Positions 49,782 to 63,081 of a DNA stretch of 64,000 nt are shown piece after piece. The stretch spans positions 2,604,001 to 2,668,000 of the forward strand of contig NZ_JAGKQQ010000001.1 in NCBI RefSeq assembly GCF_017939745.1. Direction: 5' to 3'. The position numbers and the translations under genes were made by a program. The DNA comes from Gemmata palustris (GTDB taxonomy: Bacteria > Planctomycetota > Planctomycetia > Gemmatales > Gemmataceae). Numbering within the stretch: the first letter of the stretch is position 1; each line of letters starts with the position of its first letter. Below the pieces are notes generated by a model. That model searched no databases. It was not told where the DNA came from and worked only from the letters and a program-made list of their open reading frames with translations.

Positions 49782-51788
49782 TCACCGAACCGGGTCGGCG
49801 TCCCAGTGAACGCGGAACTCGATCTTGCCCTCGTCCTTCTCGCGCGGAACGGACAGGATGTACCCCACGCGCCGCCGCGCGTCCCACCGGAACACCCAGT
49901 TCCGCCCTGGCACCTTGGAACTCAACCGTGGGGTGTACCCCTCTTTCGCGTTGGGCAGCGAAACTTCGGCAAACGCCAGCGGCGCGAGCAGCCGCGCTTC
50001 CTCATCCGTCGTGAATAGTCCCGCGAGCCGCCCGCCCGGCCACATCTCGGCCTTGTACGGCGCCACTTCCGTTGGCGGGTAACGTTTTTCCGGCAGTGAG
50101 AGCGTGATCCGGTCCTTCACCACCTCGCACGCGAGCGCGGGCAGGGCGTCTTTGGGCGGTGCCGGCTTCGGCATCTTCAGTTCCGGGTCGCCCCAAATGG
50201 TGAACGTCCACGCGGCCCGCTTGTTCGCGCCGCTCATCTTGGCGCCGTCCCCGAGGCGTTTCGCCTTGAGGTCCATGTAGCACAAGAGGAAGTTCTTCGC
50301 GTGCCGCATGGAGGCGCCGGCGTTGCGCCCGTCATAGGCGAGTGAATCGAAGAACGCGAGCGTGAGCGCCCCGCCGGACCCGGAATACGTGCGGTTCGGG
50401 GTGCCGACCACGGCTGCGGCCCCGCGATCGAACAGCAGCGCGGATTCGTCCGGGTTCAGTGCCAAACAGCTCTGGAGGAAGATGAGCGACGGGCGGAGCG
50501 GCTCGGTCCACTTCGGCATCTCGAACTGATCGACCAGCGTGCGGTAGTGCCCCTCCCACAGAAACGCATCCTGTTCGGGGAGGGTTTCGCGCAACTCTTT
50601 CGCGGTGAGTTCGGTCTTACCGTAGCGACCGATAACCTTCCAACCCGCGTTCTCCAGTTCGCGCCCCGTGTTGCGCGAGAACGTTTCCAGGAGCGGCAGC
50701 CCGTCGCCGGGGTTGCTCGCGATGAGGATCTTCGGCGGCCCCGGCGCACGGGCCAGCAAGCGCGGGCGCGCGAGCAGAAGCGGAACAACCGCCCGGTCCG
50801 CGTGGAACAGCCGCCCGGCCGAGAGCGTGATGAGGTCGTCCGTCTCCGGAATCCACGGTTCCACGTCGATCTGCTCGTCCTTGCCCGCCGCCGGGTTCGC
50901 GCGCTTCACGAGCGGGATCGCGTTCGTGTCCGCGACCACGATAAGCACGTCCGCGCGGGCCGTGTCCTTCTCTTTGAGGGCCGCATTCACAACCGTGCCC
51001 GCGTCCTTGCCGTCGGTTCCGGTCAGCAACAGCGCCGCGCGCCGCTTCACCGCCACCCACGGGGCAAGCGCGGCATGCTTCTTCGCATCCGCCGGGTTCG
51101 CAAGCACGAGCGTCTCGATCTTCCCTTTACGCAGCAACTCCTTGCTGTGAGCCGCGGCCGTGGCCGCCGCGTCCGCGAGTTCGGTGACGCGCACGCCCTC
51201 CAGTTTCTTGCACGCATCGCGCGCCGCACCGACCGCGGTGATCTCCTTCGTGCCGCGGGCCGCGAGGAGTTCCTTGAGCCCCTTGATCGGGTCGTCGCCC
51301 TCGCGCAGCACGAACAGGGGAACGCGAAGCGCCCCCGCAAGGCACGCGGCCTGAAGCAATTCAGGAGCAGGTGTTCGTGGGGCGACCACCGCGCGCTCGG
51401 CCTTCGGGTACAGTGCCCATGCGAACGCGACCGGGTCGGCGACCGTGGGCCGCACGACCGGCTCGGCCACACCCCATCGCTTGGCCGCAACCAATCCCTC
51501 TGGGAACGTACCGACGGGCGTCACCGCAGCGGGTCGGAGCCGGTCGAAGTACGGTTTGACGATAGATTCCGTGCGCCCGGAGTCGAGGAGGAAGTCGGTG
51601 TCGGGCTGCGCTGCGGCGACCATCACCCCGAGGGCAACGAGATCCGGGTCCGGCACCGTGCCCACGAGAACGACGGCCCCGGCGCGCGCGGGTTCGGGCG
51701 CTGCGGCGCGGGCAACGGTCAATGGGTGCGAAAGCGTACCGAGGGTCGCGAACCCGATCAGCAAAGCGCGGGTCGAAAGACGGCGCAT
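49782..51788 (-). CDS. Exported clan-CD (C25/gingipain-like) protease-like protein
   Basis: 668 residues from ATG 51788, with GGAGGAG 5 nt upstream. Leader RRLSTRALLIGFATLGTLSH. The N-terminal 300 residues resemble cell-wall-binding repeats (AERAVVAPRTPAPELLQAAC, LAGALRVPLFVLREGDDPIK). The C-terminal half carries a caspase-fold dyad: His414 in LWEGHYRTL and Cys441 in LIFLQSCLALNPDE, plus AAAVVGTPNRTYSGSGG and FTIWGDPELKMPKP, which are typical of C25-like proteins. Both catalytic residues seem present. It lies 28 nt after the ATP-grasp gene (stop at 51817) and is probably co-transcribed with it. Confidence 0.75.
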   Translation of the reverse strand: MRRLSTRALLIGFATLGTLSHPLTVARAAAPEPARAGAVVLVGTVPDPDLVALGVMVAAAQPDTDFLLDSGRTESIVKPYFDRLRPAAVTPVGTFPEGLVAAKRWGVAEPVVRPTVADPVAFAWALYPKAERAVVAPRTPAPELLQAACLAGALRVPLFVLREGDDPIKGLKELLAARGTKEITAVGAARDACKKLEGVRVTELADAAATAAAHSKELLRKGKIETLVLANPADAKKHAALAPWVAVKRRAALLLTGTDGKDAGTVVNAALKEKDTARADVLIVVADTNAIPLVKRANPAAGKDEQIDVEPWIPETDDLITLSAGRLFHADRAVVPLLLARPRLLARAPGPPKILIASNPGDGLPLLETFSRNTGRELENAGWKVIGRYGKTELTAKELRETLPEQDAFLWEGHYRTLVDQFEMPKWTEPLRPSLIFLQSCLALNPDESALLFDRGAAAVVGTPNRTYSGSGGALTLAFFDSLAYDGRNAGASMRHAKNFLLCYMDLKAKRLGDGAKMSGANKRAAWTFTIWGDPELKMPKPAPPKDALPALACEVVKDRITLSLPEKRYPPTEVAPYKAEMWPGGRLAGLFTTDEEARLLAPLAFAEVSLPNAKEGYTPRLSSKVPGRNWVFRWDARRRVGYILSVPREKDEGKIEFRVHWDADPVR

Positions 51789-51816
51789 CACAACTCCTCC
51801 GGTTGATCGCAGCGGG

Positions 51817-52716
51817 TCACTTCTTGCTGAATTGCCGGTCCACGCGCTCGAGTTCGGGAGCGAGTCCGCGCGCGTTGGAAATTTGAATCGCCAGCCCCGG
51901 CCGAGCATTCGCTTCGAGTAACAGCGGGCCGCGGGTGCGATCGAGCACGATGTCTACTCCGATGTAGCCCATCTCGACCGCGCGGCTTACACGGCGCGAC
52001 ATTTCCAGAATCTCGGACCAGTAAGGGACCTGGAACCCGATCACGCTCTCTTTGGTGTCGGGGTGAATGTCGGCCTTCCGGTCCTTGAGAACCGCGTGGT
52101 GCGTTACCCCCGTGGTGATGTCCACACCGGCGCCGATCGCACCCTGGTGCAAGTTCGCGCGCCCGCCGGACGCCTTTGTTGGCAACCGGAGCATCGCCAT
52201 CACCGGTTCACCGCGGTAGACGATCACCCGGATGTCGGCGGTACCCTGGTAGCTGATTTTCTCCAGCACCGGATCGGGAACCACGCGCTGTTGAATCAGC
52301 GCCTCGTCCTCGTTTCCGCCCAAAGAGAACAGCCCGGACACCACGCCGGAACAGTGCTGGCGCAGATCCTCCGCGGGCAGCACTGTTCCGTTGTGACGCA
52401 CGTAATCCGGTCCCTTGCGCCCGGTAATCACGAGCACCCCGCGCCCGCCGGCCCCGCGGTTCGGCTTCACGACGAATTCGGCGTGTTTGTCCAGAATGCG
52501 GGGCAAGTGGCGGAGCGCGGAGTGGCTCACGAGCACCGCGTAGAGGTCGGGGGTGGGTACCCCGATCTTGCGGCAGAGGTCGTCCATCTTCCGCTTGCTG
52601 TCCACATACGGGAACCGCGCCCGCGGGTTGTAGTCGAGGATCACGCCGGCATTGCGGGCGTTCATGCCCAGCACCCCGGCGGCCTGCAACCCCTTCCACC
52701 GCGACCACCACGACAT
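51817..52716 (-). CDS. Alpha-L-glutamate ligase-like ATP-grasp protein
   Basis: 299 residues from ATG 52716 (an ORF start at 52752 is possible). ATP-grasp text: FPYVDSKRKMDDLCRKIGVP, EFVVKPNRGAGGRGVLVITG (ATP-binding Lys and Gly loop), ALIQQRVVPDPVLEKISYQG, DIRVIVYRGEPVMAMLRLPT, and the metal site LLLEANARPGLAIQISNARG. It matches the RimK-related group that is normally encoded next to an inactive transglutaminase 7TM protein, as here. The family ligates an amino acid to an acceptor carboxylate with ATP; acceptor and donor are unknown. Confidence 0.9.
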   Translation of the reverse strand: MSWWSRWKGLQAAGVLGMNARNAGVILDYNPRARFPYVDSKRKMDDLCRKIGVPTPDLYAVLVSHSALRHLPRILDKHAEFVVKPNRGAGGRGVLVITGRKGPDYVRHNGTVLPAEDLRQHCSGVVSGLFSLGGNEDEALIQQRVVPDPVLEKISYQGTADIRVIVYRGEPVMAMLRLPTKASGGRANLHQGAIGAGVDITTGVTHHAVLKDRKADIHPDTKESVIGFQVPYWSEILEMSRRVSRAVEMGYIGVDIVLDRTRGPLLLEANARPGLAIQISNARGLAPELERVDRQFSKK

Positions 52717-52794
52717 GAGAAGAACCCCCGTGATTAGGTGGATGCGGATCACACATCAAACAAAACGAACTGCGACCGCAAGGGAGCTGGTGCC

Positions 52795-52976
52795 TTAAGT
52801 GTGGTCCGCTCGCTCCGCGAGCGGTTGGCTCCCCCGGCCAGAGCGCTACGTTTCTCGCAGGGGTGGTGTTAAGTGTGGTCCGCTCGCTCCGCGAGCGGTT
52901 GGCCTCCCGAGTCGGAGCACTATCTCCACCAGGGAAGCCGCCCCGCTCGCGGAGCGAGCAGACCACACTTCACTTA
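52795..52976. repeat. REP-like repeat cluster: two direct copies and one inverted copy
   Basis: A 35-bp unit beginning TTAAGTGTGGTCCGCTCGCT is at 52795-52829 and 52869-52903, and an inverted copy at 52944-52976. Each unit has its own hairpin (CCGCTCGC / GCGAGCGG). The cluster lies between the ATP-grasp and transglutaminase genes on the same strand, so it may affect the transcript between them. Confidence 0.75.
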
Positions 52977-53003
52977 ACTCACCCACACCCCGTACCACGA
53001 ATG

Positions 53004-54728
53004 TCAGCCCACTTTCGGGTCCGACTTCTTTTCGTCCGTAACCGGTTGCAGCTTGGCGTTCTCCGCTTGTTTCGCTGCGCCCTCATCGATCTTGGCCGGT
53101 TCGATCACGTCCTGGAACCGGTACAGTTCGGTCAGCCGATAACCCGTGTAGCGCCCGAGCAGGAGCAGTGCTGCGACCACGAGCCCGAGCATTTCCGGGA
53201 AGCGGAACACGGTTCGGCCCACCGCGTCCGGGCTGAGCGTCACCGCGACCACTGCGGCCACCCCGAGCGTGCCGATGAGCGTTTTGAACGACGACCACGA
53301 GCCGTCTTCCGCTTCGACCGTCCAGACCCGTTCCACCATGTGCGTCAGGATGACGAGCGGGAACAGCGACAGGTACCCGCTCACCTGCACCCCGTACCGG
53401 GCGCTCACCCCGAGCACCACGAGCAGGAAGGCGACGATCATTGTCAGCAGTACCGCGGCCCGCGGGATGAGCAGTAAGTGGAACTGATCGAGGATCTTGC
53501 GGAACACCCACCCAATGAGAACGGTGGCGGCGAAGATCCCCAGCCCCCATGCGAGGCTCCGCAAGTCGCGGAAGATGAGCCCCAGCAGCGCGGGACTAAA
53601 CACGCCGAACGTGTGGTACCCGATCACGACCCGGATGAAACTCACCACCACGGTGGCAACCGGGAGCAGAACGATGAACCGCGCGAGGTGCTGTTCCGCC
53701 GGCGGGAGCGCGGCAAGCGACACTGCTCGCCAGAACGTTTGCATCCGCGATTCGCCTGCCGGGTGATCTGCGAGGGGGCGTGCAAACAGACTCACTCGCG
53801 GCGAACCGGGGCCGCTCACGATCGGCCCATCCCCGATCCGCACCACGAGGTAATTGGCCGGCCACCTGCGGTTCCCGAAGTGGTTGAAGGTCGGGTCGGC
53901 CGGCACCCAGTGCGGCTCCGGGCGCTCGGTCCCGCGCACCCACGCCTCCACCCACCGGTGCAACTTCGGTGGGGCGTTCGGGGTCAGTATCATCCCGCCA
54001 ACAACGCGCGCGTGAATACCCTTCGCCCGACACAGTGCGACCAACAGTCGGCTCTTGCCGATGTCGTCGCCGCCCCTCGGTTTACCGTCCTTATCTTCCA
54101 AACAATCCGCAGCCGTCTGTTTGACGCCGTCCTGATAGGCGAGTGCGTTGACGTACTCAAAAAACGCACGGAACTGCTCGATCGGTTCGCCCGCGCCCAG
54201 ATCATCGGCCAGTTCGCGCACCTCGCGCCGGTCGCTCTGAATGCGGGACGTGCTCTTGAGGGTTCGGTCCGGGGCTTTTGGCTCGGCATCGAGTTGTTTC
54301 GCGCGCCCGCCCATCGCGAGGGACGGGTTGTGCGCGCCGAGAAGAGCGTGAAACGAGTACGCGAGCCGGTACCCCTTGTCGGTAGTGGCGCCGGGGCTCG
54401 TCTTCCAAACGGCTTTTTCGCGCGGCCCCTTCGCCCCGGCGCGCCCCTCTGGGCGCGTCAGCTCTTTACTGCTCCACGACTCATCAGAAACGTGTTGCCG
54501 ACGAAAGTCGGGCGGGGAGTACAACGTGAGGCGCGGCTCCGCTTTCGCCCCTTTTGCGTCCTTCTTCTTGGCCGGGAATTCACCTCGAACAGTAACGGTG
54601 ATTTCCCAAACCGACGTCCCGGGCGGTCCGGCGTCCACGCCGCCGGTAGCGCGGCGCGTAAAAAAAACGGTCGCCGAGGCGATAATGAGAGCAAGAGCTG
54701 CAAATGCGGTAAGTCGGGTCCGTAACAT
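53004..54728 (-). CDS. Inactive transglutaminase fused to seven transmembrane helices
   Basis: 574 residues from ATG 54728, with GGAGG 5 nt upstream. N-terminal signal anchor (LTAFAALALIIASATVFF), then an extracytoplasmic part with a transglutaminase fold: KSRLLVALCRAKGIHARVVG, LHRWVEAWV, HWVPADPTFNHFG. His and Asp are kept, but aligning by eye the catalytic Cys position is Ile223, in line with the inactive family. About seven helices follow (for example FIVLLPVATVVVSFIRVVIG, GLGIFAATVLIGWVFRK, AAVLLTMIVAFLLVVLGV). The tail is charged. Its ATP-grasp partner lies downstream on the same strand. Possible role: receptor or scaffold for a peptide that the ligase modifies (inference). Confidence 0.88.
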   Translation of the reverse strand: MLRTRLTAFAALALIIASATVFFTRRATGGVDAGPPGTSVWEITVTVRGEFPAKKKDAKGAKAEPRLTLYSPPDFRRQHVSDESWSSKELTRPEGRAGAKGPREKAVWKTSPGATTDKGYRLAYSFHALLGAHNPSLAMGGRAKQLDAEPKAPDRTLKSTSRIQSDRREVRELADDLGAGEPIEQFRAFFEYVNALAYQDGVKQTAADCLEDKDGKPRGGDDIGKSRLLVALCRAKGIHARVVGGMILTPNAPPKLHRWVEAWVRGTERPEPHWVPADPTFNHFGNRRWPANYLVVRIGDGPIVSGPGSPRVSLFARPLADHPAGESRMQTFWRAVSLAALPPAEQHLARFIVLLPVATVVVSFIRVVIGYHTFGVFSPALLGLIFRDLRSLAWGLGIFAATVLIGWVFRKILDQFHLLLIPRAAVLLTMIVAFLLVVLGVSARYGVQVSGYLSLFPLVILTHMVERVWTVEAEDGSWSSFKTLIGTLGVAAVVAVTLSPDAVGRTVFRFPEMLGLVVAALLLLGRYTGYRLTELYRFQDVIEPAKIDEGAAKQAENAKLQPVTDEKKSDPKVG

Positions 54729-54876
54729 CGATCCTCCGTCCTGGGAGTAATTCACCCGACCCGCAGCGAGTGTGGCGGCAATTTCAATGCCGCCCCTATT
54801 GAATCCTTCGTTCCCATGATACCATCTAACAACCCGCCCCAACACCCCACCCAAAAACCTCACCACTTCTTCAATC

Positions 54877-56187
54877 ATGCGCAGCACACTGCTCGCAATC
54901 GCGTTCGTATTGCAGATTGCACCCACGCCCGCACTGGCCGCCGACCTTTCAATTCCGAACTGGGCCAAGAACCGCGATGAGCGGATGCCGGCCACGCGCG
55001 CCGCGCACCTCGCCACCCTCGGTTCCCCCGATTGGGTCGACGCCGGGTTCCGCGGCCAGAACGTGAAGGTTCTGGTGCTGGATACCGGGTTCCGCGGGTA
55101 CCGCGACCAGCTCGGTAAATCGCTCCCGGCGAAGGTCACGGTCCACTCCGGGCGCAAGGACCGGAACCTGGAATTCAAAGACAGCCAGCACGGGATTCTG
55201 GTCGCGGAAGTGGTTCACGCGATCGCCCCGGACGCCGAACTGCTGTTGGCCAACTGGAACACCGAGGAGCCGGAAACGTTCCTCGACGCGGTGAAGTGGG
55301 CACGCGAGCAGGGCGCGAGGATCATCACCTGTTCGGTGGTCATGCCGAGTTGGAGCGACGGCGAGGGGAACGGCCCGATCCACAAGCGCCTGAGCGAACT
55401 ACTCGGGGACGGCACCAAGCCGGGCGACCCGCTGTTCTTCTCGTGCGCGGGCAACACCGCCCGCCGGCACTGGTCCGGGACGTTCGCCCCGAACGCGGAC
55501 GGGTTCCACGAGTGGACCGCGGGGGTATCGCTCAACGCGATCTCGCCGTGGTACGACGACCGCGTCGCGCTCGACCTGTGCTGGTCGGACCCGGGCGCCC
55601 GGTACCGGTTGGAAGTGATCGACACCGAAACGGGCAAACCGGCCGCGGGCGTGACCTACCGCGAACAGGCCGATCCGCCCGCGTCGGTGGCGCGGTTCAT
55701 CCCGCAATCCAACAAATCGTTCGCGGTCCGCGTTCACCAGGAAAAGGGCAAGCCCGGCAAGTTCCACCTGAACTCACTCGCCTCGTACCTCGGCGAAACG
55801 CGGCTCGCCGGGAGCATCCCGTTCCCAGGCGACGGGCCGGAAGTGGTCACGGTGGGGGCCGTGAGTCTCGATCTGAAGCGCGCGTCCTTCAGTGCGTGCG
55901 GACCGAATTCGCCGCGCCCGAAGCCGGACGTGGTGGCCCCGATCCCGTTCGGCAGTTACACGCGATCGCAGCCGTTCAGCGGAACTTCGTGTGCCACTCC
56001 GCAGGGGGCGGCGTCCGCGGCGCTGTGCATTTCGCGTAACCCGGAATGGACCTCGGCGAAGGTGCGCGGGTACCTGACGGACTGGGCACGCGACCTCGGC
56101 CCCACCGGGCACGACTGCGAGACCGGGTACGGGCTGGTCCACTTACCCGCCCTCGCCCCCGCCCCGCACCCGCGCCCGGTGCGTTGA
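54877..56187 (+). CDS. Subtilisin-like (S8) serine protease, exported
   Basis: 436 residues. Leader MRSTLLAIAFVLQIAPTPAL. Full catalytic set: Asp69 in VKVLVLDTGF, His105 in DSQHGILVAEVV, oxyanion Asn193 in FFSCAGNTARR, and Ser371 in FSGTSCATPQGAASAAL. Divergent from the transglutaminase gene with 148 bp between starts, so both may share a control region. The middle contains a beta-rich insert (YRLEVIDTETGKPAAGVTY). Substrate unknown; it could mature a peptide handled by the neighbouring ATP-grasp system (speculative). Confidence 0.93.
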   Translation: MRSTLLAIAFVLQIAPTPALAADLSIPNWAKNRDERMPATRAAHLATLGSPDWVDAGFRGQNVKVLVLDTGFRGYRDQLGKSLPAKVTVHSGRKDRNLEFKDSQHGILVAEVVHAIAPDAELLLANWNTEEPETFLDAVKWAREQGARIITCSVVMPSWSDGEGNGPIHKRLSELLGDGTKPGDPLFFSCAGNTARRHWSGTFAPNADGFHEWTAGVSLNAISPWYDDRVALDLCWSDPGARYRLEVIDTETGKPAAGVTYREQADPPASVARFIPQSNKSFAVRVHQEKGKPGKFHLNSLASYLGETRLAGSIPFPGDGPEVVTVGAVSLDLKRASFSACGPNSPRPKPDVVAPIPFGSYTRSQPFSGTSCATPQGAASAALCISRNPEWTSAKVRGYLTDWARDLGPTGHDCETGYGLVHLPALAPAPHPRPVR

Positions 56188-56216: not shown

Positions 56217-56261
56217 GCAGGGCGGGGCGTCGAACACCAATTGTTCGACGCCCCGCCCTGC
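56217..56261. terminator. Strong terminator after the subtilase gene
   Basis: 20-bp perfect stem (left arm GCAGGGCGGGGCGTCGAACA) with a CCAAT loop, 29 nt past the subtilase stop. Confidence 0.85.
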
Positions 56262-56912: not shown

Positions 56913-57215
56913 CGTTGTGGAGCGATTGGTGGAAGCTGGGTCGTTGATCTCGTGCTAGACAAGGAGTAGCGCGCGGCACAGGCCCACTTCCTTTTTTTGG
57001 CACGCAACGTGCTAATGGTGATTCTGGAAACCGGTATCGGGCTCCAGCGCCGCGATATCCTTCACCAAATGAAGCCCGAAACGATGCCCCTACGACTGGA
57101 CAACGACCGTAAAAACGAAACACTAAATCGTTGTGCCGAGCAGCGAAATATCGGTTCATTCGGGGCGATCGGTTCTCAGTCGCTGCACCGATCCGAGTAT
57201 TCAGGAGACGACCGG
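56913..57215. other. Region upstream of the light-sensing operon
   Basis: 303 bp. The haem oxygenase frame is open from 56997 but the preferred start is 57216, so this segment likely contains the operon promoter. No clear motif. Confidence 0.45.
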
Positions 57216-57803
57216 TTGATCGCACACGGACGGATACTCGAGCGCCTCAAGGAAGGTACTGCCCCCCACCACGCGGCCGCAGAACAGCGCCTCGACCTGG
57301 AAAATCGCCTGCGCGATTCGTCCGCATACGCCGCCCTGATCGGCCGATTGTGCGGGTTCTACCGGCCCCTCGAATCCGCACTCGGCCGCGTGCGCGGGTA
57401 CGAAGAACTGGACCTGCGTTTCTCCGAGCGCAGCAAGGCGCATCACCTTGTGAACGATCTTGCCGAACTCGGGCACGCGCCCGACCGCTTTCCCATCTGC
57501 CCCCCGCCTCAAGTTCCGTCCCTCGGGGACGCTCTGGGGCGCATGTACGTGCTCGAAGGCGCGACCCTCGGGGGCCGAATGATTAGCCGGATGGTGGAGG
57601 CGCGGCTGGGGTTCACCCCGGAACGCGGGTGCGCGTTCTTCGCCAGTTACGGCGACCGCGTGGGGGCAATGTGGACCGCGTTCCGGTCCGCGCTCGTGCG
57701 GTTCGCTACCACCCCGGAAGTCGAGCGCGAAATCATCGTCGCCGCGGTCGACACTTTCGACCGCTTCAATTCCTGGCTGGCATCCGCCGGGGAGCGGCCA
57801 TGA
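57216..57803 (+). CDS. bphO: Biliverdin-producing haem oxygenase (BphO type)
   Basis: 195 residues from a TTG at 57216 with AGGAG 8 nt upstream; longer starts back to 56997 are possible. Haem oxygenase text: ILERLKEGTAPHHAAAEQRL (proximal His), FYRPLESALGRV, GDALGRMYVLEGATLGGRMI (distal helix glycines), MVEARLGF. It opens haem to biliverdin, the chromophore of the phytochrome encoded next. Its stop overlaps the start of that gene (ATGA), so the two are translationally coupled. Confidence 0.9.
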   Translation: MIAHGRILERLKEGTAPHHAAAEQRLDLENRLRDSSAYAALIGRLCGFYRPLESALGRVRGYEELDLRFSERSKAHHLVNDLAELGHAPDRFPICPPPQVPSLGDALGRMYVLEGATLGGRMISRMVEARLGFTPERGCAFFASYGDRVGAMWTAFRSALVRFATTPEVEREIIVAAVDTFDRFNSWLASAGERP

Positions 57804-60049
57804 GCGCGGCGGGCACTCCAGAAATTGTGGACCTCGAGACGTGCGACCGCGAACCGATCCACGTCCCGGGGAGCATCCAGCCGCACGGCGCGCTCGTGGT
57901 CCTCTCGGACCCGGACCTCATCGTTCTGCAGGTGAGCGACAACGTCGCGGAGTTTTTCCCGAACTCGATAGAAGCGGCTCTCGGTTCGAGTGCCGCCGAT
58001 TTGTTGGGCGCGGAATGCGCCCCGCTCCTGCGCGACCTCGGTTCGCGCCTGCCGCCGACCGGCGAACCGCTGCTGCTCCGCGCGTTCCGCGCCGGGGACC
58101 GAGTTCTGAACGCGGTCGGGCACCGGAGCGATGGGGTCATCGTTCTCGAATTCGAGCCGGCTTCTGAAGAGTCCCCGTCGTCGAGCGGGCTGCACCCGAT
58201 CGTGGCCTCGTTCATCGCGAAGGTTCAGGGCACTTCTGCAGTGAGCGAACTGGCCCAGATCACCGCCCGCGAAGTGCGCCGGGTGACCGGGTTCGACCGT
58301 GCGCTCGTGTACCGGTTCGACCCGGACGGCACAGGCGTGGTCGTCGCGGAGGACGGGACCGGGCGGTTGCCGTCGTACCAGGACCACCGGTTCCCCGAGT
58401 CCGACATCCCGAAGCAGGCGCGCGAACTGTACCGCCGGAATCGGTTGCGGCTCATACCGGACGCCGGGTACCGTCCGTGCGCGCTCGTGCCGGCGCGGAA
58501 CCCGCTCACAGGGACGCCGCTCGATTTATCGCACTCCACCCTGCGAAGCGTGTCGCCGGTCCACGTCGAGTACATGCGGAACATGGGGACGGCCGCGTCC
58601 ATGTCCGTGTCGGTGCTAAAGGACGGCGAACTGTGGGGGCTGATCTCGTGCCACCACCGCACCCCGCGGGTCGTGCCGTTCGAGTTGCGCACCACGTGCG
58701 ACCTGCTCGCGCAGGTGTTCGCCCTTCAGGTGGCCGCGCGCGAGCACGCCGCGGACTACGTGCGCCGCGTCGAGATCCAGTCGGTACTCACCCGGTTGCT
58801 CGCGCACATGGCCCGGGCCGACGACTTCGTGGCCGGGCTGCTCGACCACCCGGGCGACGTCCTCGCGTTCGTCCGCGCGGCCGGGGCCGCGGTCGTGAGC
58901 GAAGACCGGTGCGGCCTGATCGGGCGCACGCCGACCGAGAACCAAGTGCGCCGGCTCGCGACCTGGCTGTTCGTCGAGCAGCGCAAAGAGGTGTTCCACA
59001 CCGACGCGCTCTCGACCGTATTCCCGGCCGCAGCCGCGTACACCTCGGAGGCGAGCGGGCTGCTCGCCGTTTCCGTCTCCAAGCTGCACCCCACCGCGGT
59101 CCTGTGGTTCCGCCCGGAAGTGATCGAAACGATCCGCTGGGGCGGCGACCCGCGGAAAACTGTCGAGGCCGGCGCGGCCCCCGGCCGGCTCCACCCGCGG
59201 AAGTCGTTCGAGACGTGGTCCCAGACCGTGCGCGACCGCGCCGTGCCGTGGCTGGGGAGCGAGGTGGACGGGGCCACCGAGTTGCGCAACGCGGTCGTCG
59301 GGATCGTGCTGCGCAAAGCCGAGGAGATGGCCGCACTGAACGTCGAGTTGCAGCGTAGCAACCGGGAACTGGAGGCGTTCTCCTACTCCGTCAGCCACGA
59401 CCTCCGCGCGCCCCTGCGCCACATCGTGGGGTACGCGGAACTGCTCAAAGACGTCGCGAAGGACAAGCTCGCAAAGAGCGAGTTGAAGCACGCCGACACC
59501 ATTATCGAGTCCAGCATTTACGCCGGGAAGCTGGTGGACAACCTGCTGGCGTACTCGCGGATGGGCCGGGCCGCCCTGGACCACTCGACCATCGACACGG
59601 GCGCGCTCGTGACCGAGGTGCGAGCGGACGTGATGTCCGAGTTCCCCGGGCGCCGGGTGCGCTGGGAGGTCGGCCCGCTCCCGACCGTCGCGGGCGATTT
59701 GGTCATGCTCCGCCTCGCGGTGCGCAACCTGCTCGCCAACGCGGTAAAATACACGAAGACCCGCGAAGAAGCCGTCGTGGAGATCGGCGCCACGACCGGG
59801 GCGGACGCGCACACGTTCCACGTCCGCGACAACGGAGTCGGGTTCGACATGCGCTACCGCGACAAACTGTTCGGGGTGTTCCAGCGGCTCCACCGCTGGG
59901 AGGACTTCGAGGGCACCGGGATCGGACTGGCGAACGTGCGGCGCATCATCGAGCGCCACGGCGGACGCACCTGGGCCGACGGCGAAGTGAACCGGGGGGC
60001 GACTTTTTACTTCACGCTGCCGGTCCCGAACGACCGCGAGAGGGAGTGA
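57800..60049 (+). CDS. bphP: Bacteriophytochrome histidine kinase
   Basis: 749 residues, domain order PAS-GAF-PHY-HisKA-HATPase. Cys15 (DLETCDREPIHVPGSIQPHG) is the expected biliverdin attachment site. GAF: YQDHRFPESDIPKQARELYR and SPVHVEYMRNMGTAASMSVS (chromophore-pocket His). PHY tongue text: WFRPEVIETIRWGGDP. Phospho-acceptor His533 in YSVSHDLRAPLRHIVGY; ATP lid DNGVGFDMRY and FEGTGIGLANVRRI. It should sense red/far-red light by biliverdin isomerisation. It overlaps bphO upstream and the response regulator gene downstream (GTGA). Confidence 0.95.
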   Translation: MSAAGTPEIVDLETCDREPIHVPGSIQPHGALVVLSDPDLIVLQVSDNVAEFFPNSIEAALGSSAADLLGAECAPLLRDLGSRLPPTGEPLLLRAFRAGDRVLNAVGHRSDGVIVLEFEPASEESPSSSGLHPIVASFIAKVQGTSAVSELAQITAREVRRVTGFDRALVYRFDPDGTGVVVAEDGTGRLPSYQDHRFPESDIPKQARELYRRNRLRLIPDAGYRPCALVPARNPLTGTPLDLSHSTLRSVSPVHVEYMRNMGTAASMSVSVLKDGELWGLISCHHRTPRVVPFELRTTCDLLAQVFALQVAAREHAADYVRRVEIQSVLTRLLAHMARADDFVAGLLDHPGDVLAFVRAAGAAVVSEDRCGLIGRTPTENQVRRLATWLFVEQRKEVFHTDALSTVFPAAAAYTSEASGLLAVSVSKLHPTAVLWFRPEVIETIRWGGDPRKTVEAGAAPGRLHPRKSFETWSQTVRDRAVPWLGSEVDGATELRNAVVGIVLRKAEEMAALNVELQRSNRELEAFSYSVSHDLRAPLRHIVGYAELLKDVAKDKLAKSELKHADTIIESSIYAGKLVDNLLAYSRMGRAALDHSTIDTGALVTEVRADVMSEFPGRRVRWEVGPLPTVAGDLVMLRLAVRNLLANAVKYTKTREEAVVEIGATTGADAHTFHVRDNGVGFDMRYRDKLFGVFQRLHRWEDFEGTGIGLANVRRIIERHGGRTWADGEVNRGATFYFTLPVPNDRERE

Positions 60050-60516
60050 CCGTGCTCAAGCCCATCCTGCTCGTCGAGGACAATCCAAAAGACCTCGAGC
60101 TGACGCTCCTCGCACTGGCGCGGAGCAACCTGGCCAACGAAGTGATTACGGTGCGCGACGGGGAGGAGTGCCTCGACTACCTCCTCATGCGCGGCCCCTA
60201 CGCGACCCGCTCGAAGGGGAACCCCGCGGTCGTGCTGCTGGACCTGAAGCTCCCGAAGATCGACGGGCTCCAGGTGCTCGAAGAAGTGAAGAAAGACCCG
60301 GCCCTCCAGGGCGTACCGGTGGTCATGCTGACGACCTCGCGCGAGGAGCAGGATCTGCTCCGGAGCTACAAGCTCGGCGTGAACGCCTACGTGGTCAAGC
60401 CGGTCGCGTTCAAAGAATTCATGACCGCCATTCAGGAACTCGGCGTGTTCTGGGCGGTGGTCAACGAGCCGCCCCCCGGGAGCTTCAAGTCCGGGCGGCC
60501 GGCGCCGAGCGAGTGA
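60046..60516 (+). CDS. Single-domain response regulator (Rcp1-like)
   Basis: 156 residues from GTG 60046 (overlaps the bphP stop); GTG 60052 is possible. Receiver motifs: ILLVEDNPKDLELTLLALAR, phospho-acceptor Asp66 in VVLLDLKLPKIDG, MLTTS, and KPVAFKEF. No output domain. Rcp1-like regulators of cyanobacterial and bacterial phytochromes have this form, and gene order makes it the likely partner of the phytochrome. Confidence 0.92.
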   Translation: MTVLKPILLVEDNPKDLELTLLALARSNLANEVITVRDGEECLDYLLMRGPYATRSKGNPAVVLLDLKLPKIDGLQVLEEVKKDPALQGVPVVMLTTSREEQDLLRSYKLGVNAYVVKPVAFKEFMTAIQELGVFWAVVNEPPPGSFKSGRPAPSE

Positions 60517-60588
60517 CGGCACCGCGCCGCGTGAGTTGGTTCACCGAAGTCGCCCGACCGCGGTCGCGCACGGACGCTGTGAGAGTTT

Positions 60589-63081
60589 ATGACAGCCACG
60601 ATCCTGCACCTGGAAGACAGCGACCTCGACGCCGAACTGATCGCCCAGCGATTGGTGCGGGCCGGCGTCGTGGCCGACTTGGTGCGCGCGAGAGACCGGG
60701 CCGAGTTCCAGACGTGGGTGACCGCCGCGCGCCCCTTCGACATCGTGCTCTCCGACTACCAGTTGCCGGACATCGACGGGCTGGAAGCCCTCGATCTTGT
60801 GCGCGAGTACCGGCCGGACGTGCCGTTCGTCTTCGTTTCCGGCGCGCTCGGCGAGGAGCGCGCAGTAGAGACCCTGAAACTCGGCGCCACCGACTACATA
60901 CTCAAGCACCGGCTCGAGCGCCTGGTCCCCGCGCTCGAGCGCGCCGTGAAAGAAGCCCGCGAGCGCGCCGACCGGCACCGCGCCGAGCACGCGGCGCGCG
61001 AAGCGAGCGAGCGCCTCGCACTGGCCCAAACCGCCGGACGGTCGGGCGTGTTCGACTGGCTCGTCCCCGAGGGGCGCGTCGTCTGGTCGCCGGAACTCGA
61101 AGACCTGTACGAGATCCCGCGCGGGTCGTTCGAGGGCACTTACGCGGGGTGGGAACGGCGCGTCGTACCGGAGGACGCGGCGCGCGTCGGCGCGCTCATC
61201 GAGCAGTGCCTCGCCGCGCGCGCCGAGAACGTCGAGTACGAGTTCCGGGTCGCGTTCCCGGGCGGCCGGCACCGGTGGCTAGCGGGCAAAGCGAAGTTCT
61301 TCTACGGCCCGCACGGAACCCCGATCCGCATGATCGGGATCAACGTCGACATCCACGACCGCAAGGAAATCGAGGAGCGACTGCGGGCCGGCGAAGAGCG
61401 CTTGCGCCGGCAGAACGAGCGGCTCCACGTACTGGGCGACGCGGCCGAAGCACTGCTCGCGGCCAACGGCGATCCCGGGCAGATGATGCGCGACCTGTTC
61501 GCGCGCGTGTCCGAGGGACTGGAGCTGTCACACTACTTCAACTACGCGCCGAGCGCGGACGGATCGGCCCTCGTACTCGTCGCGTGCGCCGGGGTGCCCG
61601 CGGAAGAAATCGACGCGATCCGCCGCCTCGATTTCGGACAAGCCGTGTGCGGCACCGTCGCGATGACCCGGCGCCCGCTGAGCGTCAACGCGGTGCAAAC
61701 GTCGGCCGACGCGAAGGTGCAAATCGTGCGCAGGTTCGGGGTGCGCGCGTATGCGTGCAACCCGCTCCTGGCGGGCGACCGGTTCCTCGGTACACTGTCG
61801 TTCGCGACGAACACCCGCGACCGGTTCAGCGACGCGGACGTGGACGTGCTCCGCACCATCTGTCACTACGTCGCGATGGCCAAGGACCACCAGCGCCTCG
61901 CGGCCGAGGCCCGCGACCGCGCCGAACGGCTGAAGGAGCAAGATCGCCGGAAGGACGAGTTCCTGGCGCTGCTCGCGCACGAGCTCCGCAACCCCCTCGC
62001 GCCGCTCCGCAACGGGCTCCAGGTGCTCAAGCTCACCGAGGGCCGGGGGGAGTCCGCGACCCGCGCGCGGGGGATGATGGAGCGGCAACTGGCGCACACG
62101 GTCCGGCTGATCGACGACCTGCTCGATATCTCGCGCATCAGCCAGAACAAGCTCAACCTGCAGCGCGCGCCGGTCACGCTGGCCGAGGTCGTGGAGAGCG
62201 CCGTCGAAACCGCGCGCCCGCTCGTCGACGCGGCCGGGCACGAGCTCACCGTCACCCTGCCCCCGGAGCCCGTGGTCCTCGACGCCGACCTGACCCGGCT
62301 GGCGCAGGTGTTCTCGAACCTGCTGACCAACAGCGCGAAGTACACGCCCCAGAACGGCCACATCGCCCTCGACGCGGAACTCGGGTCCGGTTCGCTGGTC
62401 GTCACCGTCCGCGACTCGGGGCTGGGCATCCCGGCCGACTACTTGCCGCGCATCTTCGACATGTTCTCGCAGGCCGATCGCGTGGTCGAGCGGGTCTCGG
62501 GCGGGCTGGGCATCGGGCTCGCGCTCGTGAAGGGGTTGGTCGAGATGCACGGCGGCACGGTGGAAGCGCGGAGCGACGGCCCCGGGACCGGCAGCACCTT
62601 CACCGTTCGATTACCTGTGCCGGCCCGGGTCGTTGAGACTGAACCCGAGGCGCCCGCGCCGGACCCGGTGATCGCTCGGGGGGCCAAACGGCGGGTGCTC
62701 GTGGTGGACGACAACCACGACGCGGCCGAATCGCTCGCCCAGCTCCTCGAGCTCCTCGGCAACGAAGTTCACATCGGGCACGACGGCGTCGAAGCGGTCG
62801 AAGCCGCCGAGCGCGTGCGCCCCGACCTGATCCTGATGGACGTGGGAATGCCCCGACTGAACGGGCTCGACGCGACCGCCCGAATTCGCGAACAGTCGTG
62901 GTCCTCTTCGACCACGATCGTCGCACTCACCGGGTGGGGGCAAGACTCCGACCGCGAACGGACCACCGCGGCGGGTTGCGACGGCCACCTCGTCAAGCCG
63001 GTGCTCCTCGCGGACCTGGAACGGGTGCTCGGCGACACCACGCGCCCGTCGAAGCCCCCCGCCCAGGCGGGCAAGTTTTGA
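60589..63081 (+). CDS. Hybrid histidine kinase REC-PAS-GAF-HisKA-HATPase-REC
   Basis: 830 residues. N-terminal receiver (Asp56 in [14 protein letters not shown]), PAS (about 145-260; [19 protein letters not shown]), GAF (about 285-430), HisKA with His464 in [20 protein letters not shown], HATPase ([39 protein letters not shown]), and a C-terminal receiver (Asp751 in [19 protein letters not shown]). No transmembrane segment. It lies 72 bp after the response regulator, so it probably forms the next step of the same light-signalling operon, although its own PAS/GAF inputs may bring other signals. Output not defined. Confidence 0.93.

Follow-up and report, generated by a model that had tools for sequence, protein, structure and literature searches.

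The rlo-like locus of Gemmata palustris

The stretch of DNA analysed here, referred to as the window, is 64,000 nucleotides (nt) from the 9.2 Mb, 99.1% complete genome of Gemmata palustris (contig NZ_JAGKQQ010000001.1, positions 2,604,001 to 2,668,000). Within it, a gene for a seven-transmembrane (7TM) protein with an inactive transglutaminase domain, a gene for an ATP-grasp ligase, and a gene for a C25-like cysteine protease follow one another in this order on the minus strand, with a subtilase gene on the plus strand (Table 1). An initial annotation made from the sequence alone had placed all four genes correctly, as well as the 28 nt between the ATP-grasp and C25-like genes. By sequence, the ATP-grasp and 7TM genes are the counterparts of rloC and rloB in the Rlo operon, and the subject here is the part played beside them by the C25-like gene. 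The pair had been called conserved and functionally obscure; it is real, with matches to PF14402 and TIGR02291, but it is no longer wholly obscure, as rloABC genetics exist (PMC12239564).

The ATP-grasp protein scores above the TIGR02291 cutoff for RloC, has no signal visible at the N-terminus, and is taken as cytosolic. The rloB-like protein reaches 130 bits against the NCBI exception model for RloB, far under the cutoff of 900. It has an N-terminal transmembrane (TM) segment, a transglutaminase-fold domain at approximately residues 36–322, and a 7TM domain at approximately residues 343–545. The predicted structure shows a transglutaminase-type fold plus helices (3isr_A, Z 19.9, 237 residues, 3.4 Å). 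Asp222 occupies the column of the transglutaminase Cys, as set by the family motif, and since it replaces the catalytic Cys the label "inactive" given in the initial annotation holds. Across 29 rows, Cys is present at the Cys column in 2, with 3 further rows within two columns, and the corresponding counts for His and Asp are 24/29 and 12/29.

RloC is present in 16/16 RloB-positive genomes examined. In one single-contig genome (G352), rloC is split over two overlapping frames (L095:8674-9511, L139:12627-13464), which are a single frame in its close relative L140. Structure searches with the 7TM part of RloB returned two NQR rows only, with a middling Z of about 8. A GL-x3-G-x3-P likeness to PgsC/CapC is visible by eye; the hhalign probability is 1.3% (E 0.042, 32 columns) and homology is not claimed. 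Separately, the planctomycete proteins L160–L174 are open frames of approximately 1000 amino acids with two tandem CapC-like membrane repeats.

The C25-like protease

The structure model of the C25-like protein (predicted local distance difference test, pLDDT, 88.8; predicted template modelling score, pTM, 0.90) carries a predicted gingipain catalytic fold. Residues 224–543 align with the gingipain RgpB (4ief_D, Z 25.7, 2.6 Å, 291 residues), with further gingipain matches to 1cvr (Z 25.4) and 4rbm (Z 24.2) and an identity to gingipains of 12–14% across the aligned residues. The His414 and Cys441 dyad, reported as intact in the initial annotation with the right numbering for the 668 amino acid protein, is invariant in two alignments of relatives (26/26 and 30/30). 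Basic residues such as R326, R341, K508, and R524 are also conserved in the 30-row alignment. The window protein misses the curated PF01364 cutoff and is for this reason named C25-like, and 30/30 relatives match Pfam C25 at E<=0.1, the best at 5.2e-10. A phmmer search of the PDB sequences with this protein gave no match at E<=1, and its best match in PHROGs has an E value of only 0.11.

Residues 33–323 align with the CWB2 parts of Cwp6 (5j72_A, Z 11.9, 255 residues, 3.8 Å) and Cwp8 (Z 11.7), and this range overlaps the gingipain-aligned range at 224–323, which is the last third of the CWB2-like region. The family profile matches Cwp6 (E 1.7e-6) and the Pfam CWB2 model is matched by 1/30 relatives. 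The C-terminal part of the protein is beta-rich. For proteins of Clostridioides difficile, the CWB2 motifs are reported to serve as anchors on PSII, an anionic polymer (PMC8881574).

Retropepsins and the C25-like gene

In Pseudomonas, rloA is described as encoding a secreted retropepsin, an aspartic protease with a signal peptide, that cleaves polyglutamate, with cleavage reported for reporters carrying 8 or 10 glutamates and for none carrying 6 or fewer (PMC12239564). A mutant of three RloA proteases is reported not to grow in low-salt medium, and deletion of rloB or rloC in the RloA-protease mutant to restore low-salt growth fully and other defects partly (PMC12239564), so that RloA acts as a brake on something for which RloB and RloC are required. 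The same report has the system affecting low-salt growth, cell shape, biofilm, and sensitivity to cell-wall antibiotics, and assigns 96% of RloB hits to the Proteobacteria (PMC12239564). In Shewanella, disruption of a gene for a seven-TM inactive transglutaminase is reported to increase vesicle release (PMC12096838), which also points to a role in the envelope.

No retropepsin (PF05618) was found in the host genome at E<=0.001 and, because the secreted retropepsin RloA was not found, the locus is filed as an Rlo-like variant and not as RloABC. A PF05618 match is present in 23 of the 50 RloB-positive planctomycete genomes searched. The retropepsin adjoins rloB in seven genomes (G354, G374, G072, G275, G239, G088, and G195), in none of which a C25-like gene was detected. 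The eight rloB-adjacent retropepsin open reading frames (ORFs) have hydrophobic or lipoprotein-type N-termini, of which seven were recognised with a hydropathy window and the eighth by eye; this neighbourhood count does not include two more retropepsin sites, G374 C23 and G275 C3.

A retropepsin is also present in 12 of the 26 genomes in which a C25-like gene adjoins rloB, without an export-type N-terminus in any of them. A RimK-type ligase directly follows it in 10 of these 12 genomes, and the other two run into the contig start. These 12 retropepsins therefore look RimB-like, being without an export N-terminus and mostly placed before a RimK-type ligase. Among the genomes examined, none has both a secreted-type retropepsin at rlo and a C25-like gene. 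In G169, a 211 amino acid frame (L101:9217-9849) joins a retropepsin part (PF05618 positions 1–94) to the 7TM end of RloB, which is either a decayed locus or an assembly join.

Distribution and linkage

The C25-like gene was sought in 102 genomes of the host's order, in a draw of 392 genomes from the phylum, and in a collection scan of 84,980 species. In the order, RloB is present in 33/102 genomes and the C25-like gene, with at most 11 candidates scored per genome, in 23/102, all of them RloB-positive and with the gene adjoining rloB. None of the 69 RloB-negative genomes of the order has the C25-like gene (Fisher 2e-15 for the co-occurrence, uncorrected for phylogeny). In the phylum draw, with at most 3 candidates scored per genome, RloB is present in 18/392 genomes and a full C25-like protein (E<1e-100) in 4/392, again all RloB-positive. 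Seven RloB-less genomes with weak matches to the N-terminal half of the C25 profile (E 3e-13 to 9e-29, two in G277) are excluded from the C25 counts. Co-occurrence of the C25-like gene with RloB extends beyond close relatives, to 13 genera of the order and three further families of the phylum draw, so that the confinement to close relatives which the initial annotation named as refuting its reading is not what was observed.

In the collection, the C25 alignment picked up 29 loci, 28 titled as planctomycete and one as an uncultured bacterium; as this is a short-pattern scan, absence of the C25-like gene outside the planctomycetes is unproven by it. The earlier suggestion that the C25-like addition may be specific to this lineage does not stand. 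There is an adjacent rloB on the same strand in 28/29 loci and an rloC in 24/29. The scan is not independent evidence, since the query came from rloB-linked members and 22/29 loci were already known via rloB. Six of the seven new loci have rloB; L137, the one without it, is a paralogous copy carried by the L136 genome.

Removal of the 22 scan loci that repeat known loci, and of L137 for having no rloB, gives 32 unique loci, some of them on short contigs, in which the presence of both the C25-like gene and RloB (32/32) is by selection. In these loci the C25-like gene always shares its strand with rloB, heading the gene order in 21 and closing it in 11. The C25-last order is distributed on the RloB tree over the clade of Gemmata type and also G071 and G191, which by hand reading requires at least three switches. 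rloC is a neighbour in 28/32 loci, the subtilase in 9/32, and every other family in 6/32 or fewer. In G429 and G430, and probably likewise in G423, RloC is on a separate contig while the C25-like gene adjoins rloB; G441 also has RloC on another contig, but as rloB there sits at the edge of a contig this genome is left out of the unlinked cases. That the gene order has switched yet the linkage has been kept, with other neighbours not conserved, indicates a linkage that exceeds mere synteny.

Ten genomes of the order are RloB-positive and C25-free, namely six with short RloB forms, two with fragments (G421 and G458), and G397 and G465. Most of the transglutaminase domain is missing from RloB in G393, G394, G425, G431, G450, and G485. 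No protease was seen alongside the short RloB at L076, L078, L079, L080, L081, and L082, some of which are on short contigs. The transglutaminase domain and the protease may have been lost together in such loci.

Trees of RloB and RloC

Both trees are unrooted, so that the direction of a protease swap is not readable from them. In both, the seven retropepsin-type loci cluster with the second, protease-less locus of G195 in a single group (RloB 100/100; RloC 100/98). A supported branch of the RloB tree (96/86) separates this group from the C25-type loci, the short ones, and most of those without a protease, G388 falling on the same side as the retropepsin loci.

A proposed replacement of RloA by a C25-like protease

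The reading favoured here, with moderate confidence, is of an Rlo-type envelope system whose secreted retropepsin, RloA, would have given way to a cysteine protease of C25-like type with a gingipain fold. The C25-like gene resembles a substitute for the operon's secreted retropepsin more than an addition to the pair. Cytosolic RloC, as an ATP-grasp ligase, would make an amide-linked product, most likely oligo- or polyglutamate, either free or on a carrier. RimK is reported to make poly-alpha-glutamate (PMC11957791), and in Pseudomonas is reported to share 24% identity with RloC (PMC12239564). RloB, with its 7TM part and an outward-facing, non-catalytic transglutaminase domain, would receive, export or hold this product at the membrane. 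Once exported, and perhaps envelope-held by its CWB2-like part, the C25-like protease would then cut the RloBC product and so limit its amount. The RloC and RloB steps rest on the Pseudomonas work and on family knowledge, and the cutting step rests on the shared slot. A tentative extension is that a gingipain-fold protease might have specialised as an endopeptidase for acidic (polyglutamate) chains, the CWB2-like repeats holding the anionic RloBC polymer.

There are several points that weigh against a replacement of RloA. Gingipains cleave after Arg or Lys and not after Glu, so that an acidic specificity of the C25-like protease would be new. An export-type segment was found in 21/30 C25-like rows by hydropathy window at a threshold of 1.6, and the window protein is just under this at 1.42; the nine rows without a segment include fragments and rows with doubtful starts. 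Neither protease is near full-length RloB with RloC in G397, G388, G065, and the second locus of G195, nor near RloB with RloC in G465, where the match is partial. Two C25 paralogues have no rloB nearby, namely L137 and, within the stretch read, L190 of G191. In G071, a RimB-like retropepsin divergently adjoins rloB. On the RloC tree the retropepsin group joins C25 loci from outside the order (98/99), and the C25 label requires 6 changes on the RloB tree against 5 on that of RloC. The C25 query alignment was built solely from rloB-linked members, so that the searches lean towards linked relatives; the number of candidates scored per genome was also capped, as given above, and many of the genomes searched are drafts.

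One clean swap is not shown, as the RloC tree does not keep the C25 loci as one block, and a history with several losses, perhaps with swaps on more than one occasion, is required. That the scan was seeded with linked members and that the RloC tree parts the types uncleanly both reduce confidence in the replacement of RloA. In G065 (L092:5513-7807), rloB is preceded by genes for a zinc enzyme of AstE/AspA type and for a PP2C that has a cyclic nucleotide monophosphate (cNMP)-binding domain, and it is possible that another kind of hydrolase is in the slot.

The protease may instead be a partner of RloBC in another role, such as the processing or release of surface proteins, maturation, or anchoring. 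Its different catalytic class, its much larger size with a CWB2-like N-terminus and a beta-rich C-terminal part, and the existence of RloBC loci without an adjoining protease would all fit such a role. This is nevertheless considered rather unlikely, because a C25-like gene and a secreted-type retropepsin at rlo were never seen in the same genome and because nearly all C25-like copies are rloB-linked. Inheritance of the gene order alone, with no functional link between the C25-like gene and rloB, is very improbable: 23/32 loci are from one order, which speaks for it, but the linkage has survived at least three switches of gene order, is also found in other planctomycete families, and is not accompanied by conservation of the flanking genes, some loci being on short contigs.

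In the initial annotation the ligase, the C25-like protease, and the subtilase were taken jointly as a peptide tagging and processing system. Subtilase homologues (E<=1e-40) are indeed present in 21/23 C25-positive and 11/79 C25-negative genomes (hand count, Fisher 8e-12), a strong co-occurrence, though uncorrected for phylogeny and without a control gene. Of the 32/102 order genomes with such homologues, 23 are RloB-positive, but the remainder are 9 of the 69 RloB-negative genomes, and where the subtilase does adjoin rloB the nine loci are of a single clade. It was rejected as a core component on these grounds and is probably a clade-specific neighbour, although it may be an accessory in the nine-locus clade. 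A joint tagging system is accordingly improbable, and from the proposed four-gene unit it is the C25-like gene that belongs with the pair.

Other features of the window

The features of the locus are given in Table 1. For both rloB and the C25-like gene, the longest ORF is probably over-long at the N-terminus, and the starts at 54728 and 51788 are likelier from comparison with relatives. The gap between rloB and rloC is 287 nt here and only 32 nt in the nearest relatives, L066 and L069. The palindromic repetitive extragenic palindromic (REP)-like element found there has 64 copies in the genome at <=2 mismatches, against 0 for a reversed control, and the copies are often paired as inverted repeats approximately 75 nt apart.

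Table 1. Features of the rlo-like locus in the window
Feature	Coordinates	Strand	Details
rloB-like gene (7TM/inactive transglutaminase)	53004..54728	-	574 amino acids from likely start; PF14402 163 bits, PF01841 (Transglut_core) 48.5 bits
rloC-like ATP-grasp ligase gene	51817..52716	-	299 amino acids; TIGR02291 347.8 bits (cutoff 314.2); PF14397 272 bits
C25-like clan-CD protease gene, signal-like N-terminus	49782..51788	-	668 amino acids; PF01364 20.4 bits (cutoff 23)
His414 codon, C25-like gene	50547..50549	-	EGH motif, invariant; coordinate computed from start 51788
Cys441 codon, C25-like gene	50466..50468	-	QSC motif, invariant; coordinate computed from start 51788
CWB2-like N-terminal region, C25-like protein (residues 33–323)	50820..51692	-	Cwp6 5j72_A structure match
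S8 subtilase gene, divergent, signal-like N-terminus	54877..56187	+	436 amino acids; PF00082 71 bits
Three REP-like palindromic elements between rloB and rloC	52795..52972	.	3 matches in window

The divergent subtilase is complete, as had been described, with DTG at 69, QHG at 104, and GTS at 369, which are taken to be the catalytic motifs. Beyond this gene there is a 20-pair stem-loop at 56217–56261, followed by a T-run on the minus strand. The region 56997–63081 contains a heme oxygenase (PF01126) next to an apparent phytochrome-type sensor kinase, a response regulator, and a large hybrid kinase, the three genes after the oxygenase being recognised by eye only; this is perhaps a bilin light-sensing cluster.

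Comparison with known systems

This is a real and widespread variant of the known Rlo system, in which the new element is the changed class of the protease. An earlier report of RloBC in combination with a C25-like protease was not found in titles and abstract openings, subscription papers not being covered. The change of protease class makes a testable prediction on what RloB and RloC produce. If the replacement is true, two unrelated protease classes hold the same job within one envelope-stress system, and an unrelated protease in the RloA slot would mean that proteolysis of an envelope substrate is what matters, and not a trait of retropepsins. The C25-type Rlo would be a second, independent system in which to seek the RloBC-dependent substrate, and the linkage to Rlo supplies a genomic context for a group of planctomycete gingipain-like proteases.

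The planctomycete loci share with RloABC of Pseudomonas aeruginosa, as described (PMC12239564), the RloB-type and RloC-type genes beside a protease with an export-type N-terminus; they differ in that the protease is C25-like and not a retropepsin, in that the order is A-B-C or B-C-A, and in being from the Planctomycetota. The RimK/RimB ribosome-modification pair, as reported, likewise combines an ATP-grasp ligase with a retropepsin that removes polyglutamate (PMC11957791); it is cytosolic and without RloB, and a RimB-like gene is present separately in 12/26 C25-bearing genomes. With the C25 gingipains RgpB and Kgp the planctomycete protein has in common the predicted catalytic fold and the His/Cys dyad, whereas its CWB2-like N-terminus, Pfam score below the cutoff, and linkage to RloBC set it apart. 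The fold of residues 33–323 and a weak profile match are shared with the C. difficile CWB2 proteins Cwp6, Cwp8, and SlpA, which carry other effector parts, and Pfam CWB2 is matched in only one of the 30 relatives.

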